Assembly: GCA_016765135.1 (NCBI GenBank)
Contig: JAESQN010000015.1
Location: 1 to 64,000, forward strand
Source: Robiginitomaculum sp.
Lineage (GTDB): Bacteria; Pseudomonadota; Alphaproteobacteria; Caulobacterales; Maricaulaceae
DNA length: 64,000 nucleotides
Direction: 5' to 3'
Part shown: positions 6,692 through 28,916 of the stretch, piece after piece
Layout of the letters: each line of letters begins with the position of its first letter
How positions within the stretch are numbered: position 1 is the first letter of the stretch
Program-made: the position numbers and the translations under genes
The notes under the pieces: generated by a model
Told to the model about the DNA's origin: nothing
Databases searched by the model: none
What the model saw: the letters and a program-made list of their open reading frames with translations, nothing else

Positions 6692-8067
6692 AAATATTTT
6701 TGTCTGACCACCGAGCGCACATTGGCTTCAATGGACTGGATGATGATGGTTGCGATGTCTTTGCCCGTAGCTTTTTCAATACCGTGCAGGCCGGGCGAGG
6801 AATTGACCTCCAATATTTTGGGGCCAGTATCACTGCGCAGCAAATCGACACCTGCCACATTCAGCTTGAGGACTTTGGCCGCTTTGATGGCACTGCGCCG
6901 TTCGTCTTTGGTGATCTTGATTTTGACCGCAGTGCCGCCCTGATGCAGGTTGGAGCGAAATTCGCCCGGCTGGGCCGTGCGTTTCATGGCGCCGACCACC
7001 TTGCCGTCAATTACAAAACACCGGATATCCGTACCGCTACTTTCCTTGATAAACTCTTGCACCAGAAAATGCGCGTCCAGCCCGCGAAACGCATCCACCA
7101 AAGCCTCGGCGGCCTTTTTGGTTTCGGCCAGGACAACGCCTTTGCCCTGACTGCTGGACAATAATTTGACCACAACGGGTGAGCCGCCAGCCAGATCAAT
7201 AATGCCTTTGGTGTCCTGGGAGGATTTTGCAAAGGCGGTGTTGGGCATGCCTATGCGGTGTTGGGCCAAGAGTTGATGAGCCAGAAGCTTGTCGCGAGAC
7301 GCACCAATGGCGGCGGCGGAGTTGAGACAATACACCCCCATCATTTCAAACTGACGCACAATCGCCATGCCGTAAAATGTCATACGCGTACCAATACGTG
7401 GAATGATCGCATCAAAACGCGGCAGGGCCTTGCCGTCATAATGCACATCTGGTTCATGGTCATTGATGGCCATGTAACAGCGCGAGGTCTCGATACATTC
7501 AATGACATGGCCCCTCGCTTCGGCGGCCTCAATCATTTTTCTATTGGAATAATTTTTCGGTTCCTGGGTCAAAATCCCGATACGCAAAGGGCGGCGGGTA
7601 TTGTTTTTGCGCCGCTGTTTCTTGTACATATCATAGGAAAGCGCGGGCTGTAGAAATGAGGCTGACGGCATAATATGCATATGTTCGGTAATGGCCGAGC
7701 GGCCCAGCAACATGCGGTATCCCATGGTTTCGCGGTTGGTCAGGGTGATGTGAATGGGCCAGGTCTCGCCGTTAAACTGAATGGGGGCTTCAATGACAAA
7801 GCGCGATTCGCTCTCGCCGTTGGAACTCATGACAATGCGGCGGTCAATAACCTTGGCCGAGCAAATAACTTCAACGCTCGGATCGTCCGGGTCGGGATGC
7901 ATGATAAAGCGTACTTGCGGATTGCGCTCCGAGCCAAATGGCTCCACCGCCACTGCGTGTAGCGCGGATGTACGTGCGCCTGTGTCAATCTTGGCTTTTA
8001 TTGCAGGCAGACCAAGGCTGGGCAAAGCAACCCATTCCTCCCAGCCAAGTGTAATCGATTTTGTCAT
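6688..8067 (-). CDS. RimB-like/RimK-like ATP-grasp fusion protein
   Basis: Two domains are joined. Residues 1-140 are an 'ATP-dependent zinc protease'/RimB-type domain (KAKIDTGARTSALHA, MLLGRSAI), an aspartic-protease-like fold. Residues 165-459 are a RimK-type ATP-grasp ligase (RIGILTQEP, IIPRIGTRMTFYG, VVKLLSSSQGKGVVL, ILEVNSSPGLHGIE). RimK adds glutamates to the C-terminus of ribosomal protein S6 in E. coli, and RimB has been linked to the same modification in Pseudomonas; fusion of the two supports a joint task. I prefer ATG 8067 to GTG 8082; neither has a strong ribosome site. It is followed by the coupled uracil-DNA glycosylase. Confidence 0.87.
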   Translation of the reverse strand: MTKSITLGWEEWVALPSLGLPAIKAKIDTGARTSALHAVAVEPFGSERNPQVRFIMHPDPDDPSVEVICSAKVIDRRIVMSSNGESESRFVIEAPIQFNGETWPIHITLTNRETMGYRMLLGRSAITEHMHIMPSASFLQPALSYDMYKKQRRKNNTRRPLRIGILTQEPKNYSNRKMIEAAEARGHVIECIETSRCYMAINDHEPDVHYDGKALPRFDAIIPRIGTRMTFYGMAIVRQFEMMGVYCLNSAAAIGASRDKLLAHQLLAQHRIGMPNTAFAKSSQDTKGIIDLAGGSPVVVKLLSSSQGKGVVLAETKKAAEALVDAFRGLDAHFLVQEFIKESSGTDIRCFVIDGKVVGAMKRTAQPGEFRSNLHQGGTAVKIKITKDERRSAIKAAKVLKLNVAGVDLLRSDTGPKILEVNSSPGLHGIEKATGKDIATIIIQSIEANVRSVVRQKYL

Positions 8068-22736: not shown

Positions 22737-22827
22737 GGAGACGTGGCCGAGTGGTCGAAGGCGCTCCCCTGCTAAGGGAGTATGGGTCATAAGCCCATCG
22801 AGGGTTCGAATCCCTTCGTCTCCGCCA
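22737..22827 (+). tRNA. tRNA-Ser (anticodon GCT)
   Basis: The acceptor stem GGAGACG pairs with CGTCTCC, and the D-loop reads GTGGTCGAAGGC. The anticodon stem is CTCCC/GGGAG around loop CTGCTAA, giving anticodon GCT. A long variable arm (class II) and TTCGAAT in the T-loop follow. The 3' CCA is encoded. The accessory gene block begins directly downstream of its 3' end. Confidence 0.97.
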
Positions 22828-23162: not shown

Positions 23163-24962
23163 ATGTGCCTAGCGTGGCGGAAATATGAGGGGATGGGTCT
23201 GACAAAATTTAGGATATATGGTGTGGTGAAGGGTTTGGGCTTTGGTGTGTGCTTGTCTGCTGCTCTAAGTCTTTCCGCTTGCGCCAGTTCCGGGATGTTG
23301 GGGGCCGGGAAATTGGCGGCTGTGGCCACAAGCTCGTCCTGTGCCAATCCGGTTATACTCAAGCATGCCCTCAAAGGCGAAAGTAAAGCCTCCCTGTCCG
23401 CGAATGATATCTCCGAGATAGAACGCATTGCCCGTGTGCGTGTGATGGGGTTTAAAACTGCAACATTTGTATCCGGTAGCGGGTGTGCAGATAAGGGTAT
23501 CACAAAATACAAATTAACGGATGCAGATGACGCCCCCACCACTCCCCTCTATGTCAAACACATGACAAAAGCTCAAATCAAGGCCGACCCGAATGTGCGA
23601 TGCGGACCAAAGTTCAAACAGCTATATCAACCACCAACGAAACTTAGCGGTGCTGGGAAAATATTGAGCTTACCTGATGGGGAGGGGTGTGAAAAAACAA
23701 ATAGGTATCACAAGATAGCTGAAATAGGTTTGGATAGTACGCGTTCATCATACCGCGATTATAACATTAATGATGATATCATCACAAATATTTTGATAAA
23801 GAGGCACCCTTATTTCGATAGTTTTGATTCCATGTTAGAGACTTACGTTCGGCTAGTGAATGATAAGGGCGCGATTCAGGATGGGCTTGAAGAACTTTTG
23901 AATGAGTTGTTTGAGAAACTCGATACTGATGAACTCCTCTTTGAGAGGAGGTGTCGGAATTTGCTTCCAACTGGAAAGTTCGACTTTGGATGTTCCGTTG
24001 ATCTTAGTAGTTTTAGTGGGCGCGTTGTGGAGTATTTTTTACTTTTGCAAAACTATTTCCCAAGTGCTGGGTGTCCCAGTAAGGCATATTGCATTGACGA
24101 ACAACGCCTTGGTCAAAGTTTGGACTTAGTTCGGTCAATATCTTCTTTCGCTTCGGTTGATTGGATCAATCCAAGTATTATCGTTGATTTGAGCGGCCCT
24201 CAGGTAGATAGTGATGAAAGTTATAATCGCTGGCATTGTGAAACTTTATTTAATTCGTCAAAAGTTTATTTGGACTCTTACAGGTTGGCTCTTAACCTTC
24301 ATGATGATGGTCGTGGTTTGAAGCTTTTCTTTGAACGCACCTCTGGGTTGAAATATTTTTCCGGAGGGGTGTTGTCTGAAGATACGGAATTTAAAACTCA
24401 ATTTGATAAATGTTCTGATTGGAAAACTATTGATTTCTTACAGTTGGAAATGTCAAATTTATATAATTCTTTGCTGTCTCAAAAAATTTCTCCAAGTAAT
24501 GCCGCATTGGAATATAGCAGTATAATGCTTCGTTTGAATTCTGAGACGGCTCGAATGGCAACCAAAAATAAGGCACCAAACCCAACATATGACTACGAGA
24601 AAATCACTATTGAAGTCATAAGTTTAAAGTTTTTGTTGCATTTATATGAGAGCCACAATTACGACGTCAGTTTAATGGGCGACACGGTTTTAATGGCTAA
24701 AATGGATGAAGGTCACCATTGGTTACCAGCCCCGTATGAAGTCATAGAGGGCTTGGAACTTTATTTGTTAACATATTCGCCCATACTGAATAGATCATTG
24801 TGGCGAAACACAGCGATTACTTTGTATGAATTCTACGGACGAACAATTTCTCCGTTAAATTCCAGGGGGATCAATCCTATAAATTTGGAAGATTTTCAGG
24901 TCAGGCAGGCGAATATTTGTACCTTAGCATTGGTAAATGGTGTTAGTGGAGTTTGTGAATAA
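23163..24962 (+). CDS. paralogous Cys-containing lipoprotein A, unknown family
   Basis: I do not recognise this 599-residue protein. The start is ATG 23163 or 23193 (MGLTKFR). A lipoprotein signal ends in lipobox LSAC. Module 1 (about residues 55-190) has SSCANPVI, IERIARVRVMGF, GSGCADKGITKYKL and HMTKAQIKADPNVRC. It closes with YQPPTKLSGAGKILSLPDG and then EGC. This module is shared with the next gene and, in part, with the one after. A long AT-rich C-terminal region follows, predicted mostly helical, with a C-x12-C pair (RRC..GC) ahead of a hydrophobic helix. It probably sits in the outer membrane or periplasm. No known enzyme motif is visible. Confidence 0.7.
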   Translation: MCLAWRKYEGMGLTKFRIYGVVKGLGFGVCLSAALSLSACASSGMLGAGKLAAVATSSSCANPVILKHALKGESKASLSANDISEIERIARVRVMGFKTATFVSGSGCADKGITKYKLTDADDAPTTPLYVKHMTKAQIKADPNVRCGPKFKQLYQPPTKLSGAGKILSLPDGEGCEKTNRYHKIAEIGLDSTRSSYRDYNINDDIITNILIKRHPYFDSFDSMLETYVRLVNDKGAIQDGLEELLNELFEKLDTDELLFERRCRNLLPTGKFDFGCSVDLSSFSGRVVEYFLLLQNYFPSAGCPSKAYCIDEQRLGQSLDLVRSISSFASVDWINPSIIVDLSGPQVDSDESYNRWHCETLFNSSKVYLDSYRLALNLHDDGRGLKLFFERTSGLKYFSGGVLSEDTEFKTQFDKCSDWKTIDFLQLEMSNLYNSLLSQKISPSNAALEYSSIMLRLNSETARMATKNKAPNPTYDYEKITIEVISLKFLLHLYESHNYDVSLMGDTVLMAKMDEGHHWLPAPYEVIEGLELYLLTYSPILNRSLWRNTAITLYEFYGRTISPLNSRGINPINLEDFQVRQANICTLALVNGVSGVCE

Positions 24963-24977
24963 AATAGAGAAGGTGAT

Positions 24978-26333
24978 ATGCCTTATAGAATTAGAGTAAT
25001 TGATGTTGCTAAGAATAGCCCTCCGCCAGGGTATACATTTGGTGAGATCACGGTTACAGGTTCAATAACTAGTGGTTATGATCGTTTTTGGCAAAGAGGC
25101 GATGCCGCGAGAGTGAAGAAACCTTTGATTAGGACTAAGCGTAAGCGCGTCAACCCGATTGCCCTTGCGCTTGTCTTACTCTACAGCCTGTTCTTAAGTG
25201 CCTGCGCCAGTGCCGCGCAGCAGTTAAAATCCGATACACCTGCTAAAATGGCGACCCAGTCCTCTTGTGATAATCCGGTGATTGTCCAGCATCCCCAACT
25301 TACCCCAGGTTACCCTGAGGATCTGAGAGCCGAAGAATCCCGTTTGATTTATGGCTCTGAACGCATTGCATCGTTGTTAGCTATGGGGCTTGATGTTGTG
25401 GATTACGGGGGAGGACATTGTGATGACCCCCGTATCCATAAATATAAACCCAATCCCAGTCCTTCATCAGTCAATAAGGCTCTTGAAGTTAGTGAGAAAA
25501 GTTCACAGAACGAAGGTCTGTCATACACCTTATATGCACTTCATATGACACCTTGGCAAATCAACGCCGATCCAAGCGTGGTCTGTAAGACCAGATACAA
25601 ACACCACTATCAGCCCCCTTTGAAACTCCACGGAGTTGGTAGAGTTAATATGATGCCTGACGGAAAACAGTGCCAAAGAACATCAATTTTATTTTCAGAT
25701 ATCTCTGAAGCACTTCGGATTGTGTTAAGTTTCGATGGGCTTGTAGAGAATGTTCTTGATGCTTCGATTGACTGTAGTGGCGCTGATGACTTTGAAACTT
25801 TTCAAGAGTATAGCAAAAGTATTTCTGCTAGGTACTATCGGGAGAGCCCAGAAGGATACGATATCGCCAAAACTTGGTACCAACTTGACCGTTTACGTGC
25901 AGATGTTTGTAAAATTTATCTGGATTTTGGAAGTTTTGAATTATTATTAACCAAAATAGCAAATTCACATGATTTGCTTGCCGAAAGTCCTTGTTATGAC
26001 CGCGAGCAAGTATTGCTGGACAGAAAACTTTCAATGGTTTGCATGAGAGAGGCCTCTTTAGTCGCAAAAATATACAGGGTATATGCGAAATCACTAGCCC
26101 AAAGCCGCGGCCGTATTGATGAATACGATGCGAACATCGTCACTGAAATTCAGAAGGTCAATCTGGCCGCCAAATCACGTTTATCTGTGTATATGAAGTT
26201 TGAAACGAAATACGGCTATCCTACTATTGATGTACATGATGTTTATTATCCCACTAATTCATATTCAATGACAATACGCTATATAAGCGCGGATGCAATC
26301 TACTCAATTGACCAGTATTTAGAAGGAGGTTAA
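24978..26333 (+). CDS. paralogous Cys-containing lipoprotein B, unknown family
   Basis: This 451-residue protein follows its paralogue by 15 bp, with AGAAGGTGAT before the ATG. An unusual 50-residue charged leader (MPYRIRVIDVAKNSPPPG) precedes the hydrophobic signal and lipobox LSAC. The leader may mean a late true start or a distinct N-terminal topology. Module 1 is conserved: SSCDNPVIVQH, ERIASLLAMG, GGHCDDPRIHKYKP, HMTPWQINADPSVVC, YQPPLKLHGVGRV and MPDGKQC. The C-terminal half differs from lipoprotein A except for a C-x15-C pair (SPC..MVC) followed by a helix. Function is unknown. Confidence 0.7.
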   Translation: MPYRIRVIDVAKNSPPPGYTFGEITVTGSITSGYDRFWQRGDAARVKKPLIRTKRKRVNPIALALVLLYSLFLSACASAAQQLKSDTPAKMATQSSCDNPVIVQHPQLTPGYPEDLRAEESRLIYGSERIASLLAMGLDVVDYGGGHCDDPRIHKYKPNPSPSSVNKALEVSEKSSQNEGLSYTLYALHMTPWQINADPSVVCKTRYKHHYQPPLKLHGVGRVNMMPDGKQCQRTSILFSDISEALRIVLSFDGLVENVLDASIDCSGADDFETFQEYSKSISARYYRESPEGYDIAKTWYQLDRLRADVCKIYLDFGSFELLLTKIANSHDLLAESPCYDREQVLLDRKLSMVCMREASLVAKIYRVYAKSLAQSRGRIDEYDANIVTEIQKVNLAAKSRLSVYMKFETKYGYPTIDVHDVYYPTNSYSMTIRYISADAIYSIDQYLEGG

Positions 26334-26334
26334 C

Positions 26335-27300
26335 ATGGCTCTAGTGCCACAACCATATCGACGAATATTCAAAAATAGAAAAGCAAAAACACAGTATTTC
26401 AGCGCGTTATTGCGCATTAGTGGTGTGGTGAAGGGGTTGGGCCTTGGTGCTTGCATGTCTGTTGCTCTAAGTCTCTCCGCTTGCGCCAGTTCAAGCACCA
26501 AAACGGCTATCAAGGCCGACCCGCAAGAGGCGGGGAGGGAGCAAGGCGACCGACAGGGAAATAATAATGTAAAATGCAAACCAACATTCACCCAAGTCTA
26601 CCAACCCCCGCTAAAGCTAGGCGGAGCCGGGCAGGTGATTATGGTGCCGAGCGGGGAAGAGTGTTTGGCAAAGGATATCAATTTTGAATTTTCAAATGGT
26701 TCCCGAGGAGAGATTGCCAGTCATAAAATTGTTATCGACAGATACAAATTACGGGATGAGTGCTTTTCGATGGCGGAAACTGACAAAGATTACACCTCAA
26801 AAACTGTGGCCGACAGTTTATTTAATTCTTATATAACTTTATGCCGAAAGTTCATTGAAACGTCGACTGGCAGAAGCTTGTCGCATAAAGATTTTGAATT
26901 TATCGTCAGTGTCACTTCGGATAATCTTCAAAGTCTCGATAATAAAGCCTGTTTTCGTGCAACTTCAAAGGGTGAGCGGCTTACATTGGATAGTCGCTGT
27001 CAGGATGAAATCCTTAGTTCTCTAAATGTGCTGGAGTTGTATATCGCATTCCTTGATCAGTGTCATAGATATGGCAATTGTTTGCAAACGGCTGATAAGG
27101 GCAGGGTATCAGCAGTGAAATACAAAATTAATGAGGTTTTATCTGAAATTGACAACATTGATGCGAGGTGGCCCTTTCCATACATTTGCATTCACTGTGA
27201 ATCTTGGGAGCGAGATTTGGATAAAGAAATACATGAGAGCGTCAGTGAGACAATAAAGTCAAAACCAAAATTACTTTTATTACAACTGTCATACCTTTAA
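26335..27300 (+). CDS. paralogous Cys-containing lipoprotein C, module 1 shortened
   Basis: This 321-residue third paralogue has a near-perfect ribosome site (AAGGAGG) inside the last codons of lipoprotein B and starts one base after its stop, so it is coupled. The signal region (GVVKGLGLGACMSVALSLSAC) is almost identical to that of lipoprotein A at DNA level. Most of module 1 is missing: it passes straight to TAIKADP, an unrelated insert, then NNVKC, YQPPLKLGGAGQVIMVPSG and EEC. The C-terminal domain shares only the C-x15-C pattern (ACF..SRC) plus helix and a further pair (DQC..NC). It looks like a recombinant deletion product. Function is unknown. Confidence 0.68.
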   Translation: MALVPQPYRRIFKNRKAKTQYFSALLRISGVVKGLGLGACMSVALSLSACASSSTKTAIKADPQEAGREQGDRQGNNNVKCKPTFTQVYQPPLKLGGAGQVIMVPSGEECLAKDINFEFSNGSRGEIASHKIVIDRYKLRDECFSMAETDKDYTSKTVADSLFNSYITLCRKFIETSTGRSLSHKDFEFIVSVTSDNLQSLDNKACFRATSKGERLTLDSRCQDEILSSLNVLELYIAFLDQCHRYGNCLQTADKGRVSAVKYKINEVLSEIDNIDARWPFPYICIHCESWERDLDKEIHESVSETIKSKPKLLLLQLSYL

Positions 27301-27500: not shown

Positions 27501-28916
27501 ATGACACATCATGGAATGACGGGACTAAATGGTCTCAACCATTTTTGCAATTATGCAAAAAATCAAACCCTCACGTCTGGCCGCTTTGGCCGAATATTTA
27601 CGGACTTACCTCCGCTTTATACAGACCCCGATATTTTACGAAATCTCGGCGCACAAAACGGATCTATGGACGGAGGGACGGGCAGTTCTCGAACGGATAC
27701 GGTGCCTGTTGGTCAAGTGTTTTTCGGACAATTTATCGATCATGATATAACACTAGATACCTCGTCCTCACTCGAGCGCGTCAACAGTGAGGCGGAGACC
27801 GAAAATGTGCGCACGCCCACATTGGATCTGGACAGTTTATTTGGAGACGGGCCAGAAGGGTCCCCGTTTTTGTATGTTCAGGAGGGTGATTTCTCCGGGG
27901 TCAAATTGTTAACCGGTGCGGACGGAACGGCCATCACCCAAGACGCTGCCTTGAGAGCCGCTGACCTTGTGCGCTCGCCTGGGGGCAGTGCGGTGATTGG
28001 CGATCCACGCAATGATGAAAACCGAATAATATCGCAAATCCATTTGGGGTTGATAAATTTTCATAACCGGGTGGTGGACACACTTGCATCCGAATATGAA
28101 GGCGAGGAATTGTTTGAAGAAAGCCACACACTGGTCATTGCCCATTATCATTGGGCGATCCTCCATGATTTTCTCACAGATATGTGCGGCAGTGCCGTGG
28201 TTTGGGATATTTTGGGCAATGGGCGGCAATTTTATTGTGCAGATGAAGCCCTGCCCTTCATCCCTATCGAGTTCTCCGTAGCCGCCTTTCGGTTTGGTCA
28301 TTCCATGGCCCCACAAAAAATTCAAGTGCAGACAGGGGATAGTGCATTTTCGCTGTTTGGTGATGTTTTGGGGCGTGGGTTTTCACCTCTTTCCGATGAG
28401 CGGGCAATTGTTGATCATAATGAAATTTTCAATACAGCCGCGAACCAACAGGTGCAAATGGCGGAAACAATGGATACGAAATTGGCGACAACCTTGTTAA
28501 ACTTGCCCTTTATAAATGAAGGTGAGACGTCATTGGCAACACGCAATTTGTTGCGCGCCCAAAGTTTTCTTCTACCATCGGGAGAAAACATTGCCGCCAC
28601 AATGGATCGACCAGAAGCCGAGGTTACCCAGGTTTCTGATTTTGCCAACAATGCGTCTGGCGGTGTACTTAATGGCAAGACGCCCTTATGGTTTTATATT
28701 TTGGCGGAAAGTGAAATTATTGGCCGCGAAACCCGACCAGGGCAATTTGATAAAGGCGAAGGATTAGGCCCTGTTGGTGCCAGACTGGTAGCCGAAGTGA
28801 TCATCGGTCTTATGGAGCTTGACTCCCGCTCGTTTTTATCCACGAACCGGGGCTGGAGCCCCGAGGACGGTTTGGGCGCTTCTGTGCGCGGTATTGGTGA
28901 TCTCTTGGTATTTTAA
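27501..28916 (+). CDS. animal-type haem peroxidase family protein
   Basis: This 471-residue protein of the peroxidase-cyclooxygenase superfamily shows the distal-histidine region GQFIDHDITLD near residue 78 and the region DPRNDENRIISQIHLGL near residue 173. The proximal-histidine region is AAFRFGHSMAPQ near residue 260. Bacterial members oxidise halides or organic substrates with H2O2, and some are involved in iodide oxidation or defence. No signal peptide is visible, so export, if any, is by another route. GGAG lies about 11 bases before the ATG. It follows the lipoprotein trio on the same strand, and a stem-loop follows its stop. The substrate is unknown. Confidence 0.88.
   Translation: MTHHGMTGLNGLNHFCNYAKNQTLTSGRFGRIFTDLPPLYTDPDILRNLGAQNGSMDGGTGSSRTDTVPVGQVFFGQFIDHDITLDTSSSLERVNSEAETENVRTPTLDLDSLFGDGPEGSPFLYVQEGDFSGVKLLTGADGTAITQDAALRAADLVRSPGGSAVIGDPRNDENRIISQIHLGLINFHNRVVDTLASEYEGEELFEESHTLVIAHYHWAILHDFLTDMCGSAVVWDILGNGRQFYCADEALPFIPIEFSVAAFRFGHSMAPQKIQVQTGDSAFSLFGDVLGRGFSPLSDERAIVDHNEIFNTAANQQVQMAETMDTKLATTLLNLPFINEGETSLATRNLLRAQSFLLPSGENIAATMDRPEAEVTQVSDFANNASGGVLNGKTPLWFYILAESEIIGRETRPGQFDKGEGLGPVGARLVAEVIIGLMELDSRSFLSTNRGWSPEDGLGASVRGIGDLLVF

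Follow-up and report, generated by a model that had tools for sequence, protein, structure and literature searches.

Tandem lipoproteins of a Robiginitomaculum genome share a cysteine module and are probably orphan immunity proteins of polymorphic type I-secreted toxins

The stretch of DNA analysed here (the window: 64,000 nucleotides of contig JAESQN010000015.1, Robiginitomaculum sp., assembly GCA_016765135.1) belongs to a 2.87-Mb genome and carries three consecutive lipoprotein genes, A, B and C, all on the plus strand and separated by gaps of 15 bases and 1 base. An earlier note, made from the sequence alone, had described them as tandem lipoproteins with a common cysteine block. This description holds: the open reading frames (ORFs) lie where it placed them, a lipobox is present in all three proteins, and their module similarity is far above chance. 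The genes and their parts are listed below; E values for module 2 come from a profile of 10 rows that includes the window copies of A, B and C.

23163–24962, plus strand: gene A, ORF for a 599-residue lipoprotein (lipobox LSAC, Cys40), with module 1, module 2 and a unique C-terminal domain of about 420 residues
23334–23582, plus strand: module 1 of A (SSC.NPVI ... C.D..I.KY ... LYVKHM), common to B, G004, G009, G053, G115 and G312
23583–23690, plus strand: module 2 of A (profile E 1.8e-19)
24978–26333, plus strand: gene B, ORF for a 451-residue lipoprotein (lipobox LSAC, Cys76), with modules 1 and 2 and then a unique C-terminal domain
24978–25112, plus strand: possible remnant of a toxin N-terminus before the signal peptide of B, a weak lead
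25566–25673, plus strand: module 2 of B (profile E 4.7e-21)
26335–27300, plus strand: gene C, 321-residue lipoprotein (lipobox LSAC-ASS), with module 2 only and a unique C-terminal domain
26560–26664, plus strand: module 2 of C (profile E 4.5e-23)

A constant module joined to unrelated C-termini

Module 2 spans about 36 residues (C-x6-YQPPxKLxGxGxV-x3-PxGxxC) and is common to A, B and C. Module 1 is the cysteine module of about 110 residues that precedes it in A and B (SSC.NPVI ... ER-IA..MG ... C.D..I.KY ... LYxxHM). A and B are 41% identical across residues 26–181 of A (E 1.4e-19). A and C are 50% identical in the module (E 4.8e-8) and also resemble each other in their signal peptides, at 69% identity in protein (E 2.3e-6) and 90% over 72 bp of DNA. 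C carries an ADP too, but well ahead of its module's NNVKC. The true start of B is likely the GTG at 25113, its signal peptide beginning only after residue 46 of the ORF. In AlphaFold models, only modules 1 and 2 of B reach a predicted local distance difference test score (pLDDT) of about 70, and module 2 forms a beta hairpin there.

Past the module, the three proteins have nothing detectable in common. No pair of their C-termini was among the top z-scores (best z about 2.5 against shuffled sequences), and homology among them was rejected by this comparison. The strong divergence described at first sight is real, but the pair of cysteines 12–15 residues apart that the earlier note saw before a helix is not detectable as a shared feature. 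The C-terminus of A has one true relative, in the sister genome G013 (30% identity over 469 residues), and the lipoprotein of G004 is 66% identical to A over residues 1–180, with no similarity beyond. Other relatives bear yet other C-termini, including a TonB_C domain in G003, G007 and L075, so that homologues with many different C-termini do exist, as the earlier note supposed.

These proteins represent a constant lipoprotein module family outside all curated families searched. Searches of A, B and C against Pfam, NCBIfam, PHROGs and PADLOC, and with phmmer against PDB chains, FrpD included, returned no match, which agrees with the first impression that they belong to no known family. A single-protein search of genome contigs with A was also without a match, and a Foldseek search with the model of B gave a meaningless result. 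Within the genus, the module profile matched in 6 of 14 genomes, and within the family in 10 of 137. It also matched in a few genomes of other families of the order, and in none of 384 further genomes in the class sample. An XdhC-like protein (L072) matched by the profile was discarded as a chance match. Searches of viral contigs with module 2, and of plasmids and phages with the G004 lipoprotein, gave no match, which leaves a phage or plasmid origin unsupported. Module-2 lipoproteins with a conserved, different C-terminus also occur in another family of the order (f3 g21; L070 1402–2214 and L069 844–1752).

The junction between module and C-terminus is visible in DNA. Two genes of the G013 array are 94.5% identical over 255 bp, up to the last Cys codon of module 2, beyond which identity drops to the level of unrelated sequence. 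Window gene C and its G004 counterpart share about 90% DNA identity through the module, and their match stops at the same last Cys codon; the upstream part of the G004 gene has its best match in window A (79.5% over 415 bp), making it a mosaic. Such abrupt match ends favour recombination over slow divergence. The G013 array itself (G013:C19; L044 6900–15100) interleaves intact and decayed module copies with lipoproteins that lack the module. In other lineages, genes without module 2 that stand beside toxins also have similar N-termini and then diverge. These are the tandem or paralogous genes L133 2687–3841 and 4114–5442 (37% over 150 residues), and L139 8485–9084 with L140 1781–2512 (42% over 52 residues).

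Type I secretion toxins beside the relatives

In relatives of A–C, the module is linked to giant toxins of type I secretion systems (T1SS). Two contigs of one metagenome-assembled genome labelled Arenicella (label unverified), L075 and L076, carry HlyD, a module-2 lipoprotein and a giant protein in that order. A glycine zipper was detected in one of the two giant proteins, and L075 has a second, small lipoprotein after the one that bears TonB_C. Between HlyD and roughly the point where module 2 ends, the two contigs are 80% alike in DNA. They are then unrelated across the lipoprotein C-terminus and the toxin N-terminus, and the constant region of the toxin is again 78–95% alike. Both contigs break off within the identical part of the toxin.

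A search of 396 genomes of the order with the toxin constant region gave matches in 20. Complete loci consist of an ABC transporter, HlyD, a variable gene and a toxin of mostly 2000–5000 residues, with an HlyC acyltransferase in several. RTX repeats are present in the giant toxins where tested, and the variable gene overlaps or almost touches the toxin start. A lipoprotein gene stands directly 5′ of a T1SS RTX gene in ten loci (L075, L076, L097, L098, L131, L133, L140, L144, L145 and L146), an arrangement absent from the window locus itself. The lipoprotein in this slot in G026 has a diverged module 2 (E 0.0005, small set).

Of 16 module loci, none of them chosen for T1SS, 6 have T1SS toxin genes or their remains within a few kb. 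Only about 5% of genomes carry toxins of this kind, and a rough estimate makes such a proportion very unlikely by chance. Remnants lie at several module loci. In G004, a toxin fragment lies just upstream of the lipoprotein (E 2e-7), and a 73-residue ORF 16 bp downstream matches the opening part of the VgrG2b effector domain (E 0.017). A fragment of a toxin N-terminus follows a PD40 lipoprotein in G009 (E 8e-17), a frameshifted HlyD remnant is present in G013:C30 (E 7e-80), and in G037 a broken module ORF comes just after HlyC and an RTX toxin. L045 is a broken T1SS locus upstream of two lipoproteins, where an integrase-like N-terminal part (by eye) is joined to HlyD and then frameshifted (6956–7984).

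The gene in the slot between HlyD and toxin differs nearly every time and mostly encodes a lipoprotein, a signal-peptide protein or a transmembrane protein. In L141, it encodes a signal-less Imm11 protein (22.9 bits against a curated cut-off of 22.1), next to a toxin whose start shows an AHH-like nuclease motif by eye and has no Pfam match. The toxins vary as well: their common region begins 80–640 residues in, and their N-termini are mostly unrelated. Where toxin N-termini are related, in L133, G009 and L146 (E 3e-20 and 1e-4), all three neighbours are PD40 beta-propeller lipoproteins, so that one lipoprotein type co-varies with one toxin type at three loci. Further, the toxin-adjacent lipoprotein G106 and the orphan G013b have a C-terminal motif in common (p 0.002). 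Orphan arrays are seen in window A–C and in G013:C19, and their persistence in genomes that have neither HlyC nor such a toxin fits antidotes.

Orphan immunity lipoproteins and the alternatives

We consider it probable that A, B and C serve as orphan immunity lipoproteins in a polymorphic toxin system of the RTX/T1SS kind, whose layout resembles that of FrpD–FrpC. In intact relatives the operon runs from ABC transporter through HlyD and the putative immunity gene to giant toxin, often followed by HlyC. The type I secretion signal is normally C-terminal, which would leave the variable effector domain at the N-terminus and place the immunity gene directly 5′ of the toxin. The lipoprotein would be anchored in the envelope of the producer, A–C probably facing the periplasm, and its variable C-terminal domain would bind and neutralise the matching toxin domain. 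Recombination between a left constant flank (the upstream HlyD gene, signal peptide and module 2) and a right one (the glycine-zipper/RTX region of the toxin) would exchange the immunity C-terminus together with the toxin N-terminus in a single block, keeping the module constant and the C-termini unrelated. Once a toxin was lost, as the former partners of A–C presumably were, the lipoprotein genes may have been retained or piled up as arrays guarding against the toxins of kin.

More tentatively, we speculate that these loci form a mirror image of known polymorphic toxin systems, built around a contiguous exchangeable cassette. The 105-bp module-2 coding sequence could then act as the left recombination hinge, the equivalent of the conserved motifs located ahead of the toxin tips of CdiA and Rhs, and the window could be an antidote bank left by exchanges. 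This extension is a possibility that we hold with less than moderate confidence.

Several observations weigh against an immunity function. Relatives have toxins that combine a constant delivery part with a variable effector domain, but a search of the window genome found neither such a toxin nor HlyC, and no significant toxin remnant lies beside A–C. Before the signal peptide, the opening 45 residues of B's ORF align at the same offset with the toxin N-terminus of L076 (p 0.008 before correction for multiple tests), and tblastn gave this lead no support. The C-terminal domains of A–C match no known immunity family, and the AlphaFold models of A and B are poor (mean pLDDT 40 and 44). Most toxin-adjacent proteins lack module 2, which in turn also occurs in settings other than T1SS (G003 and G007 with TonB_C; G024; G369 and G414). 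Finally, the toxin N-termini of L096 and L098 are related, yet their neighbours are not; the common stretch might be a non-effector part of the toxin.

Among other explanations, the one that survives best, though we think it unlikely, is that the lipoproteins are docking or display partners whose variable C-terminus holds the N-terminus of their own RTX exoprotein at the outer membrane. The gene order resembles that of FrpD and FrpC, for which an adhesion-type role has been proposed. A docking partner, however, does not account for a signal-less Imm11 protein in the same slot, nor for the VgrG2b-like effector start in G004, a feature of antibacterial toxins, and arrays that persist in genomes devoid of the exoprotein would be useless for docking.

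It is less probable still that module 2 is an ordinary envelope domain, a small and perhaps disulfide-bonded hairpin joined to unrelated domains, and that A–C are lineage-specific proteins with some other function. Syntenic genes of G003 and G007 carry module 2 fused to TonB_C, and such a fusion stands in one gene neighbourhood, away from T1SS, in two Robiginitomaculum metagenome-assembled genomes (L046 7390–8247 and L047 9399–10262); a full-length relative (45%) of it lies in the T1SS locus of L075. Module 2 is joined to another domain in G369 and G414. Lipoproteins of about 180 residues that consist of modules 1 and 2 alone occur in G053 and, arranged in tandem, in G312. An ordinary envelope domain leaves unexplained the cassette boundaries that take in toxin N-termini, the toxin remnants, and the reappearance of a C-terminal motif from a toxin-adjacent lipoprotein in an orphan array.

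The earlier note's own proposal was diversifying surface lipoproteins of an adhesion or effector kind. On this reading, or on one of antigen-like lipoproteins, the T1SS genes beside the relatives would be incidental. It would suit the constant N-terminus, the variable C-terminus and the module-2 genes without T1SS neighbours (G003, G007, G024, G053, G115 and G312), but it is very improbable given the excess of toxin genes and remnants near module loci and a cassette boundary that takes in the toxin N-terminus; the T1SS-toxin slots, the Imm11 neighbour and the co-varying types point instead to immunity.

Comparison with known systems and the neighbourhood of the genes

The closest layout is that of FrpD–FrpC in Neisseria meningitidis, where an outer-membrane lipoprotein binds the N-terminal domain of a T1SS-secreted RTX protein and the role of FrpD is unsettled (PMC5233953, PMC6759196). 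The arrangement is the same as in the relatives of A–C. In these papers FrpD is not reported as a family with a constant module and variable C-termini. The search of PDB chains with A–C gave no match to FrpD, and A–C are for that reason not classed as FrpD members. The Smlt3024–Smlt3025 pair of the Stenotrophomonas type IV secretion system combines an effector like RTX N-terminal domains with an immunity protein of FrpD-like topology and a lipobox (PMC6759196). This pair independently suggests immunity for such lipoproteins, although it differs in its delivery and no sequence relation to A–C was found.

Other systems offer partial parallels. VgrG2b, an antibacterial metallopeptidase, acts in the periplasm; its immunity proteins belong to the envelope, are lipoproteins in some species, and have disulfides that matter for their function (PMC6899460). 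The VgrG2b–PA0261 and Tpe1–Tpi1 pairs resemble the proposed system in pairing a periplasm-acting toxin with cysteine-containing envelope immunity proteins, but they differ in delivery by type VI secretion and in an immunity gene downstream of the toxin gene (PMC6899460). In a related lineage, the Cdz system of Caulobacter crescentus likewise joins T1SS-secreted glycine-zipper killers to an envelope immunity protein; its toxins, however, are of 84–86 residues, CdzI is an inner-membrane protein with three transmembrane segments, and cassette exchange is not described (PMC5380434). Class IV CdiA with CdiC shares the polymorphic toxin/immunity logic and an HlyC-like acyltransferase in bacterial competition (PMC8510554).

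The two-partner CdiB/CdiA layout with a C-terminal toxin was not seen among the relatives, which are ABC transporter–HlyD loci with an N-terminal variable region. Contact-dependent inhibition relies on type V secretion, with a C-terminal toxin and the immunity gene downstream; the gene order of the T1SS loci is mirrored.

Little is settled about what FrpD and other lipoproteins encoded immediately ahead of T1SS RTX proteins do, or about the role of the variable N-termini of those RTX proteins. With many natural lipoprotein–toxin pairs in loci of the Maricaulales/Caulobacterales type and one slot occupied by Imm11, the choice between antidote and docking is directly testable. The loci also provide a case in which a recombination boundary falls inside a putative immunity gene, and for annotation they give a likely role to a family of unnamed lipoproteins.

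The surroundings of A–C yield some further observations. Gene A starts 335 bp downstream of a tRNA-Ser(gct) at 22737–22827, and the lipoprotein cluster has a G+C content of 42%, against 49% in the window, resembling an island beside a tRNA. At 27501–28916, 200 bp after C, lies a gene for a haem peroxidase of the animal type (An_peroxidase, E 1.3e-18), in which no signal peptide is evident; haem peroxidase domains of this type are also found in T1SS exoproteins.
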